IMG/VR virus record: IMGVR_UViG_3300033977_000196
Coordinates: 1 to 37,505 of that record
DNA length: 37,505 bases
Strand: one strand, 5' to 3'
From: a virus
This document shows positions 18,287 to 33,445 of the stretch, one piece after another (position 1 is the stretch's first letter; each line of letters begins with the position of its first letter). The notes below the pieces were generated by a model. That model was not told where the DNA came from. It saw only the letters and a list, made by a program, of their open reading frames with translations, and ran no database searches. The position numbers and the translations under genes were made by a program.

Positions 18287-18316
18287 AGAAACTTGGTCGG
18301 CGCCGCCGGAAGAGAA

Positions 18317-18709
18317 ATGGTGGCCAGGCTGGCCACGTTGACCCTGAACGGGGTCCTGATGGCCGCCGGCAAAAACTGGAAGCTACAGTGGGGCCCGAAG
18401 GTGAACAAGGACGCAGTTTGCGGAACAGTGATCCAGCGATTAACCCACGGCAGCTTTGAAGGGAAAGGAACCTGCGAAGCAATCTATGTCAGCGACGACA
18501 ACTGGGGTGCGTTGAACGGACTCGCGAACCTGGACCAGATCTTCACGCTGACCAGTTTCGATTCCGACACGGAAGCCAGCCCTGACACGAAAATCTTGAG
18601 CGTCTCAGTGAAATGCGGGCCCTTCACTCGAGAGGGGCCAAGCAACGCGGACGGCGTAATCAAAGCCACCCTCGAAGTCGAATTCATGAGCTGGCCGACG
18701 GGAGCCTAA
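18317..18709 (+). CDS. Probable major tail tube protein
   Basis: A 130-aa protein with a beta-rich layout (ATLTLNGVLM, EAIYVSDDNW, ILSVSVKCGP, VIKATLEVEFMS) like short tail tube proteins, and located between the neck genes and the chaperone. TTG 18293 is an alternative start. No sheath gene is seen, which points to a non-contractile tail. Confidence 0.5.
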   Translation: MVARLATLTLNGVLMAAGKNWKLQWGPKVNKDAVCGTVIQRLTHGSFEGKGTCEAIYVSDDNWGALNGLANLDQIFTLTSFDSDTEASPDTKILSVSVKCGPFTREGPSNADGVIKATLEVEFMSWPTGA

Positions 18710-18722
18710 GGATCCTGGAATA

Positions 18723-18732
18723 TAGTATACTA
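18723..18732. promoter_or_regulatory. TAGTATACTA palindrome (pair C, upstream)
   Basis: A perfect copy 14 bp after the tube gene, preceded by GGATCCTGGA and a 3-bp gap. The second copy of the whole unit lies 35 bp downstream in the same orientation. Confidence 0.65.
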
Positions 18733-18757
18733 TGAAGGGCAAGGAGAGGATCCTGGA

Positions 18758-18767
18758 TAGTATACTA
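18758..18767. promoter_or_regulatory. TAGTATACTA palindrome (pair C, downstream)
   Basis: A perfect copy directly abutting GGATCCTGGA and ending 2 bp before ATG 18770. This is the clearest case of the bipartite site. Confidence 0.68.
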
Positions 18768-18769
18768 AC

Positions 18770-19258
18770 ATGGCCATGGCCAAGGAGGTTGACGATGTGA
18801 GCTGCGAGATCAACATAACCGTAACGGGGCTGGATGAGGCGATCGATTACTTCGACCGCGCCGCCTCAACCCTCGTAGAAAACGTCTCCCTGAAGCTGTC
18901 CGATGTCTGCCAGGATATCGTCGCGTACGCTAGGGCCACGGCCCCGGTCCGCACCGGCGAGTACCAGGCTTCGATCGGAATGCAGCAAACCGGTCCCTTA
19001 ACTTTCAGTATCTTCGCGGACGCAGCCCACGCGGCCTTCGTGGAGTTCGGCACCGCGCCCCACATCATTACGCCGAAGAACGTGAAGGCCTTACATTTCG
19101 ATGTTGAAGGGGAAGAGGTGTTCGCGTTGTACGTTCTCCATCCTGGAACGGCGCCGCAGATGATCATTCATAACGCGAAGAAGGCAAACATGGCCGCGAT
19201 CGTCGACGCCATAAGATCAGGCGTCGCGGAAGCATTGAGTGAGGGCGGTGGCAAGTGA
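18770..19258 (+). CDS. HK97 gp10-like tail completion protein
   Basis: This 162-aa protein has the family signature of the HK97 gp10-like neck/tail protein: ATAPVRTGEYQASI, then DAAHAAFVEFGTAPHII, and LHPGTAPQM. It helps join or complete the tail at the head. ATG 18770 lies right after a palindrome, but GTG 18797 has a better ribosome-binding site (AAGGAGG, 8-base spacing), so the true start is uncertain. The next gene starts in a GTGA overlap. Confidence 0.85.
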   Translation: MAMAKEVDDVSCEINITVTGLDEAIDYFDRAASTLVENVSLKLSDVCQDIVAYARATAPVRTGEYQASIGMQQTGPLTFSIFADAAHAAFVEFGTAPHIITPKNVKALHFDVEGEEVFALYVLHPGTAPQMIIHNAKKANMAAIVDAIRSGVAEALSEGGGK

Positions 19259-19791
19259 GCTCTGAAATAGACATTCACAACAAGGCCGAGCTGCGTAAGC
19301 TGCTCGGCGCCATGAACAAAGACGAACAGGACGAAATGATCTCTGTACTCGGGACGCTGGTTAGCTTCGCCGACCTCCCCATCCACGTACGGGTTCACAG
19401 CCCCGCGACGCCGGATAAGTTCGCGGAGATCAGAGGGCGACAGTTGAAAGATCATGAGATCATACGGTACATGGAGAAGCTGGGCGAGATCGATAAGGAG
19501 CTGCTAACTGCCAAGGACCCGAACGAGGTCCCGTTAACGCCCGACCAACTGCGAAAGCTGCACGAGCTCTTCGATGAATACATAACGCTCTCCACACGGA
19601 TCCCCAGGGAGTTCCTGACGGCCCTTGGAAATAATCGGACGCGATACCAGCTCTTCAAAGGAATCATGATCGGTTCGCAACCGTCGGAGGAACAGCGGGA
19701 GCAATCCAGCAAATTTCGTGAAAAGCAACCAGGGGTTCCGGCGGATGGAGATCTGCGAACTTCTGGGAATGAGGCCGCGGGATCTGGGTGA
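19255..19791 (+). CDS. Tail assembly chaperone (G-like)
   Basis: A 178-aa, highly charged helical protein between the gp10-like gene and the tape measure gene, the position of lambda gpG. Its last residues become low-complexity from about residue 140, where a second frame opens. A frameshifted G-T product is expected. Function: wraps the tape measure protein during tail assembly. Confidence 0.65.
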   Translation: MSSEIDIHNKAELRKLLGAMNKDEQDEMISVLGTLVSFADLPIHVRVHSPATPDKFAEIRGRQLKDHEIIRYMEKLGEIDKELLTAKDPNEVPLTPDQLRKLHELFDEYITLSTRIPREFLTALGNNRTRYQLFKGIMIGSQPSEEQREQSSKFREKQPGVPADGDLRTSGNEAAGSG

Positions 19792-19876
19792 GCTCTCACG
19801 GTTCGAGCTCCAAACCCTCTCGGATTTCGTAGACGAAAGGAATAGGAGATGGAACAAAGCCTTTGGCCGAAGCTAA
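19670..19876 (+). CDS. T-like extension of the tail chaperone, reached by frameshift
   Basis: An open frame one base ahead of the G frame, running from 19670 to TAA 19876. Its conserved-looking part reads GFRRMEICELLGMRPRDL, then a helix SRFELQTLSDFVDERNR, the style of the lambda T / GT domain that binds the tube or tape measure. ATG 19745 could start it alone (43 aa), but no ribosome-binding site is seen. The change from frame 1 to frame 2 needs +1 or -2 slippage; TTT-CGT at 19714-19719 and AGGGG at 19731-19735 are candidate sites. Confidence 0.55.
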   Translation, partial: SVRNRRRNSGSNPANFVKSNQGFRRMEICELLGMRPRDLGELSRFELQTLSDFVDERNRRWNKAFGRS

Positions 19877-20087
19877 GATAGAACGATGCTCGACATGTGG
19901 TGGCTGGATGCAACGCAAATATCTGCAGCAATACTCAGAAGATACAGTCGCGAAGAAACTCTGGAATAGCGTTTCGAAAATTCGAGGCGTGGAATCCGCA
20001 TACATCTTATTCTGTCCAAGATGCGACGGAACCAGCATCCTCAACGATCTACCGACTACAACAAGACTAGGTGATATCGACGGCTGA
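19863..20087 (+). CDS. Zinc-ribbon protein
   Basis: A 74-aa protein with CSTCGG and CPRCDG knuckles 42 residues apart. TTG 19863 overlaps the T-like frame by 14 bp; the 3' end overlaps the tape measure gene by 17 bp. A zinc protein in this place is unusual for a tail module. Confidence 0.6.
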   Translation: MAEAKIERCSTCGGWMQRKYLQQYSEDTVAKKLWNSVSKIRGVESAYILFCPRCDGTSILNDLPTTTRLGDIDG

Positions 20088-20682
20088 AGCTCCTGAAGAA
20101 GTCCTTGTGGATATTGAGGCGGACGACAATGCGACTCCTAACATTACAAGCGTCGGCCGGAGCCTCGCCGTAATCGGCTCCACTCTCGGAATTGTAGCCA
20201 GGGATCTGGGCATCCACAACGCAGCCGTAAACGAAGCCATCAAAGCCATTCAGTTGCTGGGCGCAGTGGTCAGATCTCTCGGCGCCGCCCAAAAACTCCT
20301 CGCGATCGCGCAGGATCTTGTGAACGTGAGCACGGTGGAGATGAGCGCGCAGGATGCAGCCGCCATCGCTTGGGGCATGGGTTTAACGGATACAACGGTG
20401 GCGCAGACTGCCGCGAACTATGAGCTCGCAACCAGCTTCGACGTCCTAAACGCTTCCATGGGTCCGATCGGCTGGCTCGCACTCGCGGGCGGATTAGTGG
20501 CCGCGGGGGTCGCCGGGTACGGGTTGGCCGGCGGCTTCGGAGGCGCCCCAACCGGACCAAGCCAGGAGTTCACAACTTTCTACATGGGAAACGTGCAGAT
20601 GACCACGAAAGCCCAAATCAACGACCAGGCCAATGCTATGGCTACTCTCTACCATCAAGCCAAGCGGCGATATGGAAGGTAG
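20071..20682 (+). CDS. Short tape measure-like protein
   Basis: A 203-aa protein right after the chaperone, where the tape measure gene belongs. It has long hydrophobic helices (SVGRSLAVIGSTLGIVARDL; AAQKLLAIAQDLV) and a Gly-rich membrane-like segment GPIGWLALAGGLVAAGVAGY at about 131-150, as seen in tape measure proteins. At about 1.5 angstrom per residue it would set a tail of only some 30 nm. The start is GTG 20071, because no ATG lies upstream in frame. Confidence 0.6.
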   Translation: MISTAEAPEEVLVDIEADDNATPNITSVGRSLAVIGSTLGIVARDLGIHNAAVNEAIKAIQLLGAVVRSLGAAQKLLAIAQDLVNVSTVEMSAQDAAAIAWGMGLTDTTVAQTAANYELATSFDVLNASMGPIGWLALAGGLVAAGVAGYGLAGGFGGAPTGPSQEFTTFYMGNVQMTTKAQINDQANAMATLYHQAKRRYGR

Positions 20683-32048: not shown

Positions 32049-32324
32049 ATGGCATCTGCCAACGATATCTTCGCGGGAATCATGGGCTTGCTGATTACAA
32101 TCGCGTACATGGGCACCTTGGCCTGGCTCGCGTACGCGGCGCCTATGAGTCCGACCTATCAGGCCGACTTCACCACGTTTCTGAATTGGAGCGTGGTCCC
32201 CGGCGTCGTGTGGGGCTTCTACTTTGGACGGGCGGCCGGCGCCATGCTCGCTAGACGGCAAATAGAGGAGCTTGAGAGAAAGCTGAAGAGAGTGCGGACC
32301 AGGACGGGGAGGCTCGCGCGATGA
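32049..32324 (+). CDS. Holin-like membrane protein
   Basis: A 91-aa protein with two transmembrane helices (FAGIMGLLITIAYMGTLAWL and LNWSVVPGVVWGFYFGRAAG) and a basic helical tail (RRQIEELERKLKRVRTR), the layout of small phage holins. ATG 32049 is set by the TATA-like box. It overlaps the papain-like protease by ATGA, so the two are coupled. Confidence 0.65.
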   Translation: MASANDIFAGIMGLLITIAYMGTLAWLAYAAPMSPTYQADFTTFLNWSVVPGVVWGFYFGRAAGAMLARRQIEELERKLKRVRTRTGRLAR

Positions 32325-33445
32325 CGCGGTACTCGCGGTACTGCGCTGACTGCCATCGCTGGGTCGAGCCGGGCCATAAGAAACAGCCTGGCTTCGAGAA
32401 ACATCGCGCGTATGCGCTTGGGCGCCGGAAGAGCCGGATTCCAGCTCGCTATCACATCCTGCAGTTCCTCCGGCAGCTTAAGGCGGTGCCCACATCGTAC
32501 GATCTCAGAGTTTCAGGGACCGGGGGCGGAATCGGCATCGGCCCGATTCTTAACCAGGAGGATGAATCCGCCTGCGTAGCGTTCGCGACTACGAGCGTGA
32601 AGATGTGGAAGGTGGGCGCGGAAACCGGCAGCTTCCCGGACTTGAGCCCTCAATTCATCTACGACGTTGGCCGAAACGCAAACAACTCATGCCCAGATCC
32701 TGGCATGGATTCACTCTGGGGCGTCCAGGTCCTCGTTTCAAACGGCGTCTGCCCCTCAGCCGACTACCCGTTCACGGACTCGGATAATTGCGGGAACCCA
32801 ACCAACCAGGCCGTTCAAGACGCGGCCGAATACAAAGCAGAGAACTTCGCGGCAATAACCAGCGTCGCCGACATGAAACAAGCCATACTCACGTACGGAG
32901 CGATACAAATCGGAATTCCGGTTTATGAAGAGATAATGACCGTCGGACCAGACGGGATCATTCCGATGCCCGGAGAGGACGAGCAACCTGTGGGCGGCCA
33001 CGAACTCGCCGTCGTAGGCTGGGCCGTGATCAACGGAACCAGGTACCTGACCATCAAGAATAGTTGGGGCGCAAGTTGGGGTGAGCAGGGCTGCGGATAC
33101 CTGCCGGAAGATTACATGACCATGATGTTCCAGAACGGGGAGGCGGACAGCTACAGCACCGTGGACCAACCGACGCCGCCAACGCCGGCGCCCACAGACT
33201 GCTGGGGCACCTTCCTCTCGGCCATCCAAACGGCCGTTGAAAACAATGATCTTCTCGGCGTGATCACAGCGCTACAGCAACTCGTCGCCTGCCTCCAATC
33301 GCAACCGACGCCGAGTGGCCGTGAAGGTTCCAGCCTTGCGTGCTGGGCCACTTTCGTCGCGGACGTGTTAGGCGCCGCCGCCCAGTTCCGTGAATGCTAC
33401 GAGGCCGGCTCAAAGAGGAAGAGCAAGGGGTACGGCCATGTCTGA
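32321..33445 (+). CDS. Papain-like (C1A) cysteine protease
   Basis: A 374-aa protein with all landmarks of family C1A: oxyanion Gln79 and catalytic Cys85 in NQEDESACVAFA, His227 in GGHELAVVGW, and Asn247 in KNSWGASWGEQGCGY. An N-terminal C8/C11/H19 cluster (YCADCHRW) looks like a zinc site, and a C-terminal helical tail follows PTPPTPAP. No signal peptide is visible. Its coupling to a holin-like gene suggests it may degrade the host protein envelope (S-layer) for release or entry. A maturation protease is possible too. Confidence 0.85.
   Translation: MTRYSRYCADCHRWVEPGHKKQPGFEKHRAYALGRRKSRIPARYHILQFLRQLKAVPTSYDLRVSGTGGGIGIGPILNQEDESACVAFATTSVKMWKVGAETGSFPDLSPQFIYDVGRNANNSCPDPGMDSLWGVQVLVSNGVCPSADYPFTDSDNCGNPTNQAVQDAAEYKAENFAAITSVADMKQAILTYGAIQIGIPVYEEIMTVGPDGIIPMPGEDEQPVGGHELAVVGWAVINGTRYLTIKNSWGASWGEQGCGYLPEDYMTMMFQNGEADSYSTVDQPTPPTPAPTDCWGTFLSAIQTAVENNDLLGVITALQQLVACLQSQPTPSGREGSSLACWATFVADVLGAAAQFRECYEAGSKRKSKGYGHV

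Follow-up and report, generated by a model that had tools for sequence, protein, structure and literature searches.

Two overlapping reading frames in an IMG/VR virus record, G and T, very probably encode a two-part tail assembly chaperone, expressed by programmed +1 ribosomal frameshifting. The window (i.e. the whole stretch of DNA analysed) is the 37,505-base virus record IMGVR_UViG_3300033977_000196, and the comparison set comprised nine independent genomes: the window and eight IMG/VR relatives, which stem from several metagenomes. A programmed frameshift that joins G to a T-like domain had been suggested in an earlier note on this DNA, and the arrangement turned out to be conserved in all nine genomes.

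Gene neighbourhood of G and T

The window record encodes a terminase (phrog_675, E 1e-72), a portal, a head-tail adaptor and a SU10-type capsid protein (PF17236, E 1.4e-8). The features in and around the chaperone region are the following:

18293..18709, + strand: probable tail tube / major tail protein, 138 aa; tblastn matches in 6 loci, clade-conserved
18770..19258, + strand: HK97-gp10-like tail completion (Neck1) protein; PF04883 E 6.9e-8, phrog_5 E 6.7e-17
19255..19791, + strand: G, putative 0-frame tail assembly chaperone ORF, 178 aa; start GTG 19255, stop TGA 19789-19791
19711..19719, + strand: candidate slip site AAA_TTT_CGT; AAATTTC (19711-19717) invariant in 9/9 genomes
19718..19876, + strand: T, putative +1-frame extension, VKSNQGFRRMEICELLGMRP...FGRS; stop TAA 19874-19876; T homology and three-helix model
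19729..19731, + strand: CCA codon; the 0-frame stop of the 8 relatives at this place has been lost in the window
19255..19876, + strand: predicted G-T fusion, 206 aa; 19255-19716 plus 19718-19876, with TTTC translated in a single step
20071..20682, + strand: putative short tape measure protein, 203 aa; kept in 4 loci, Gly-rich hydrophobic segment

The gene order is tail tube, gp10, G, T and tape measure, in which the tail tube was named from its position, without a profile match, and the tape measure name is likewise putative (weak phrog_1293 tape measure match, E 0.66). The gp10/Neck1 gene lies immediately upstream of G (the GTG start of G overlaps the gp10 stop), and the position of G and T between tail tube and tape measure is the classic site of a frameshifted tail assembly chaperone. 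Across the clade the putative tape measure protein spans ~200-230 aa (window 20071-20682; L007, L008, L010 and L011), a size that, provided the usual length rule applies, would point to a very short tail.

Several other observations were made in this region and its surroundings. A zinc-ribbon-like small ORF (74 aa, weak PF13453, 19863-20087) is located between T and the tape measure gene; it found no convincing match among the clade relatives, and L008 carries a different insertion at its place. Repeated motifs around AGTATACTA and AGGATCCTGGA occupy the stretch between the tail tube and gp10 genes (18710-18770) and are possibly a promoter or the trace of a recent duplication. Late in the record (32321-33445), a papain-family cysteine protease is encoded (PF00112, E 1.4e-22). 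The gp10-like protein matches actinophage ORFs labelled as tail assembly chaperones (L121, Gordonia phage NHagos; L122, Mycobacterium phage Rinkes), hence some annotations of this kind may denote gp10/Neck1 proteins.

Relatives and conservation of the two frames

As G alone retrieved no match in viral contigs, genomes or phage records, the relatives were reached via the capsid and gp10 proteins. The capsid protein search returned 11 IMG/VR loci, 6 of which extend to the G-T region (the near-identical L004 and L005 were counted once), and the gp10 profile contributed L019, L022 and L025. Profile HMMs of G and T were built from six members, with L019, L022 and L025 left out of building; in these three they detected G (E 8e-28 to 9e-47) and T (E 7e-14 to 9e-26), once again in the +1 register. 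Further scans recovered the same clade and no new one, the gp10-only matches (L027-L098) contained no recognisable G-T pair, and a capsid profile search of genome contigs found no provirus. CCC_TAG gene ends in L034, L036 and L038, considered as a second +1 site, belong to a different gene and were set aside.

The T frame is open from 19670 to 19873, terminates at TAA 19874-19876 and is offset by +1 (equivalently -2) from G. Both the opening of a second frame at 19670 and a register of +1 or -2 (and not -1) had been read from the window alone in the earlier note; the same offset was found in all nine independent genomes, in which the G proteins of the relatives are 22-39% identical to that of the window. 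Queried by tblastn, the window T matched L008 (E 5e-13), L010, L007 and L011, and among the tblastn loci G was always one frame behind T wherever both were found. By both tblastn and HMMs the T frame is kept in relatives, and it is thus real coding sequence. The 24 codons of G that lie 3' of TTT are not conserved.

The window sequence itself was seen in a single copy, as it would be if the two frames were the product of a sequencing or assembly error, or of a decayed gene split by an indel. Nine divergent contigs that come from several metagenomes show one and the same +1 offset and identical seven bases, which refutes such an origin; we assign practically no weight to it.

Absence of a consistent T start

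A separate overlapping T gene, translationally coupled to G and initiated at its own GTG 19718 or ATG 19745, would draw on two features of the window: the GTG directly follows TTTC, and an AGGGG is found ~9 bases upstream of the ATG. ATG 19745, from which a separate product had been named as the outcome that would speak against frameshifting, occurs in none of the relatives (most of them have Gly codons aligned there), and T homology starts upstream of it, at the slip site. In L010 and L007 the T frame contains no ATG, GTG or TTG ahead of T residues 38 and 40, respectively, which are past the conserved core, and those T-frame start codons that do occur in other members differ in position. Since two relatives have no start before the core and ATG 19745 is restricted to the window, T is most plausibly made by frameshift. 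Separate initiation, which would also leave the invariance of AAATTTC unexplained, is largely refuted by L007 and L010 and we hold it to be very improbable.

The probable slip site

In the window, TTT_CGT occupies positions 19714-19719 of the G frame and follows an AAA codon (19711-19713). The junction reads AAA_TTT_C[G/A][T/C], with T in the +1 frame, in 9/9 genomes; TTT is followed by CGT or CGC in 7/9 (window included) and by CAT in the other two (L007 and L010). Of the two slip candidates named beforehand, TTT_CGT at 19714 gained good support, its AAA_TTT_C being kept in every genome of the set, the window included, whereas AGGGG at 19731 is present in the window, is not conserved in the relatives and was dropped. 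No run of seven bases other than AAATTTC is invariant in the junction alignment (150 columns, 63% mean column identity). TTT accounts for just 11-24% of the Phe codons in 8/9 loci (53% in the AT-rich L022) and is used at the site in 9/9; the probability of AAA and TTT in all nine, given codon usage and with the genomes treated as independent, is ~3.7e-10. Within genes, in-frame AAA_TTT_CRY is encountered once in 8/9 loci, at the slip site, and three times in L022.

These bases also bear on the direction of the shift. A -2 shift, as in Mu, leads to an identical final frame, and the record of the haloarchaeal virus HCTV-8 carries the wording 'putative programmed translational -2 frameshift'. At AAA_UUU_C, though, it would place tRNA-Phe on AAU, with poor pairing, while a +1 shift from UUU to UUC re-pairs perfectly; moreover, no selection for a C 3' of UUU would be expected. 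In the haloviruses the codon before UUU is AAG (HF1-like viruses) or UCC (HSTV-2), so only UUU_C is common to them and the window clade. Given the perfect re-pairing on UUC and the lack of a plausible -2 pairing at AAA_UUU, pairing rules favour +1, and we regard -2 as distinctly unlikely. The same pairing argument favours +1 for HCTV-8, annotated as -2, in line with the paper on the HF1 group.

The two short homopolymer runs in AAATTT could in principle support transcriptional, instead of ribosomal, slippage. Known polymerase slippage needs longer runs than three bases, and the C after TTT would be unneeded; we see next to no chance of this route.

RNAalifold detected no conserved RNA structure around the slip site in the junction alignment. 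Single-sequence structure z-scores scatter round zero (the 3' stem of the window, z -1.6, is not significant), and an upstream Shine-Dalgarno-like stimulator, sought by eye, had no consistent placement. As no stimulatory RNA structure was found, the efficiency of frameshifting may be low. The window uses CGT at ~6 and CGC at ~17 per 1000 codons (CGC is not rare in these genomes), thus a rare-codon pause would be a partial explanation at best.

A zero-frame stop at a fixed distance

A 0-frame stop is situated exactly four codons past TTT in 8/9 genomes, the exception being the window, in which G continues for 20 codons beyond the lost stop position. The stop is TGA in six genomes, TAG in L004 and TAA in L022, and is formed by the final T of a T-frame codon together with a following GA, AG or AA. 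By codon usage, the choice of a T-ending codon in all 8 stop-bearing genomes has a chance of ~3e-5, so the stop seems to be selected and its place kept. In the simplest view, the fixed stop gives G a short tail of constant length. A more speculative possibility, which we consider unlikely and which draws on the kept position, the changing identity (TGA, TAG, TAA) and the ~3e-5 chance, is that the stop forms part of the recoding signal and that its position tunes the shift (e.g., through ribosome pausing or queueing); in the window virus a different element, for instance the virus's own stem downstream, would then have taken over from it.

Probable chaperone role and proposed mechanism

We infer the chaperone role of G-T from synteny and architecture. 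No family was recognised for G in Pfam, PHROGs or NCBIfam, and the T of one member of the clade has a marginal match to a chaperone family (phrog_9001, E 0.064). The two proteins were modelled apart. The AlphaFold model of G (residues 1-154, pLDDT 86.9) consists of a hairpin plus helices; a PDB fold search with it gave nothing meaningful, and Foldseek against viral models produced weak matches (E above 0.01), whose names include tail assembly chaperone (ranks 8 and 11) and pre-tape measure frameshift protein G (rank 14). The small T model contains three helices (pLDDT 87.7), in agreement with the T-like helical domain that had been proposed from the translation.

We infer the following course of events. 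Most ribosomes would read G to its own stop. In a minority, the P-site tRNA-Phe (anticodon GAA) would move one base forward, from UUU to the better-paired UUC, and reading would resume at GUG in the T frame, to yield the join ...SSKF|VKSNQGF... By analogy with lambda, G would form a coat on the tape measure protein, and G-T, the less abundant product, would bring in subunits of the tail tube.

Host and significance

An archaeal host is likely for the clade, judging from its gene content. The tyrosine recombinase of L011 scores best with the NCBIfam model XerA_Arch and matches only three archaeal viruses in the phage collection; L010 encodes a proteasome-like protein nearest to an archaeal beta model, and the window a HerA-like ATPase. 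The best matches of the window terminase are mostly Bacillus phages. At L111:7582-8286, an IMG/VR contig of the clade carries a gene for a proteasome-like protein (PF00227 E 6.7e-9).

According to a 2021 review, the recoding demonstrated in archaea comprises only -1 frameshifting and stop-codon readthrough (PMC8211752); the sites of this clade, if its host is archaeal, would hence be ready-made test cases for +1. The seven-base motif could also be used for annotating such chaperones, which gene finders split or miss.

Comparison with known systems

A minority of tailed phages are known to use chaperone frameshifts of +1 or -2, and that of HSTV-2 has been described as very likely +1 (PMC5009743). 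With lambda G/GT, the clade shares the gene order, the overlapping pair and a C-terminal T extension reached only by frameshift (PMC5009743); lambda differs by a -1 shift on another slip sequence, and no sequence similarity was detected. The Listeria phages PSA, A118 and A500 likewise use a +1 shift in tailed-phage structural genes (PMC5009743), although at CCC-based sites in capsid and tail shaft genes, and not in a chaperone.

A parallel in motif is PA-X of influenza A (UCC_UUU_CGU), which has the UUU_C P-site slip, a CGU A site and no known 3' signal (PMC3498833, PMC8310308). It involves a eukaryotic ribosome, an unrelated gene and another preceding codon, so the comparison is one of motif only; its +1 shift, for which the same UUU to UUC pairing argument was used, was shown by mass spectrometry of the junction peptide (PMC3498833), whereas that of the window clade is predicted from sequence. 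The influenza case led Firth and colleagues to predict UUU_C +1 sites as a general class (PMC3498833), and the TTT-CGC of HF1-like haloviruses, together with its eukaryotic-virus parallel, has already been pointed out and +1 proposed (PMC7230728). Since UUU_CGN had been noted in both the HF1 group and influenza, neither motif nor mechanism is new; set against the open-access literature, what is new are this clade, the AAA_UUU_CRY form with CAU, and the fixed stop.

The haloarchaeal myoviruses of the HF1 group and HSTV-2 (Hafunaviridae) resemble the window clade in having the chaperone pair just before the tape measure gene, the +1 register and UUU_CGC. We read the site as UCC_UUU_CGC in HSTV-2 and AAG_UUU_CGC in HF1-like viruses, and UUU_CGC occurs in six more haloarchaeal virus records (five filed as Hafunaviridae, plus Hardygib1); in the haloarchaeal virus chaperone genes inspected (L100-L105 and L099:15482-15515) it always lies near the G stop. 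By tblastn, no protein similarity is detectable between these viruses and the window clade. The preceding codon, always AAA in the clade, is UCC (HSTV-2) or AAG (HF1-like) in the haloviruses; the stop after UUU, fixed at four codons in the clade, comes after two or eight in HF1-group/HSTV-2; and the A site, CGC in the latter, is CAU in two members of the clade, which suggests that it can hold CAU as well as CGN. The clade would thus represent a second case of UUU_C +1 frameshifting in prokaryotic viruses, with strong comparative support and without detectable protein similarity to the HF1 group.
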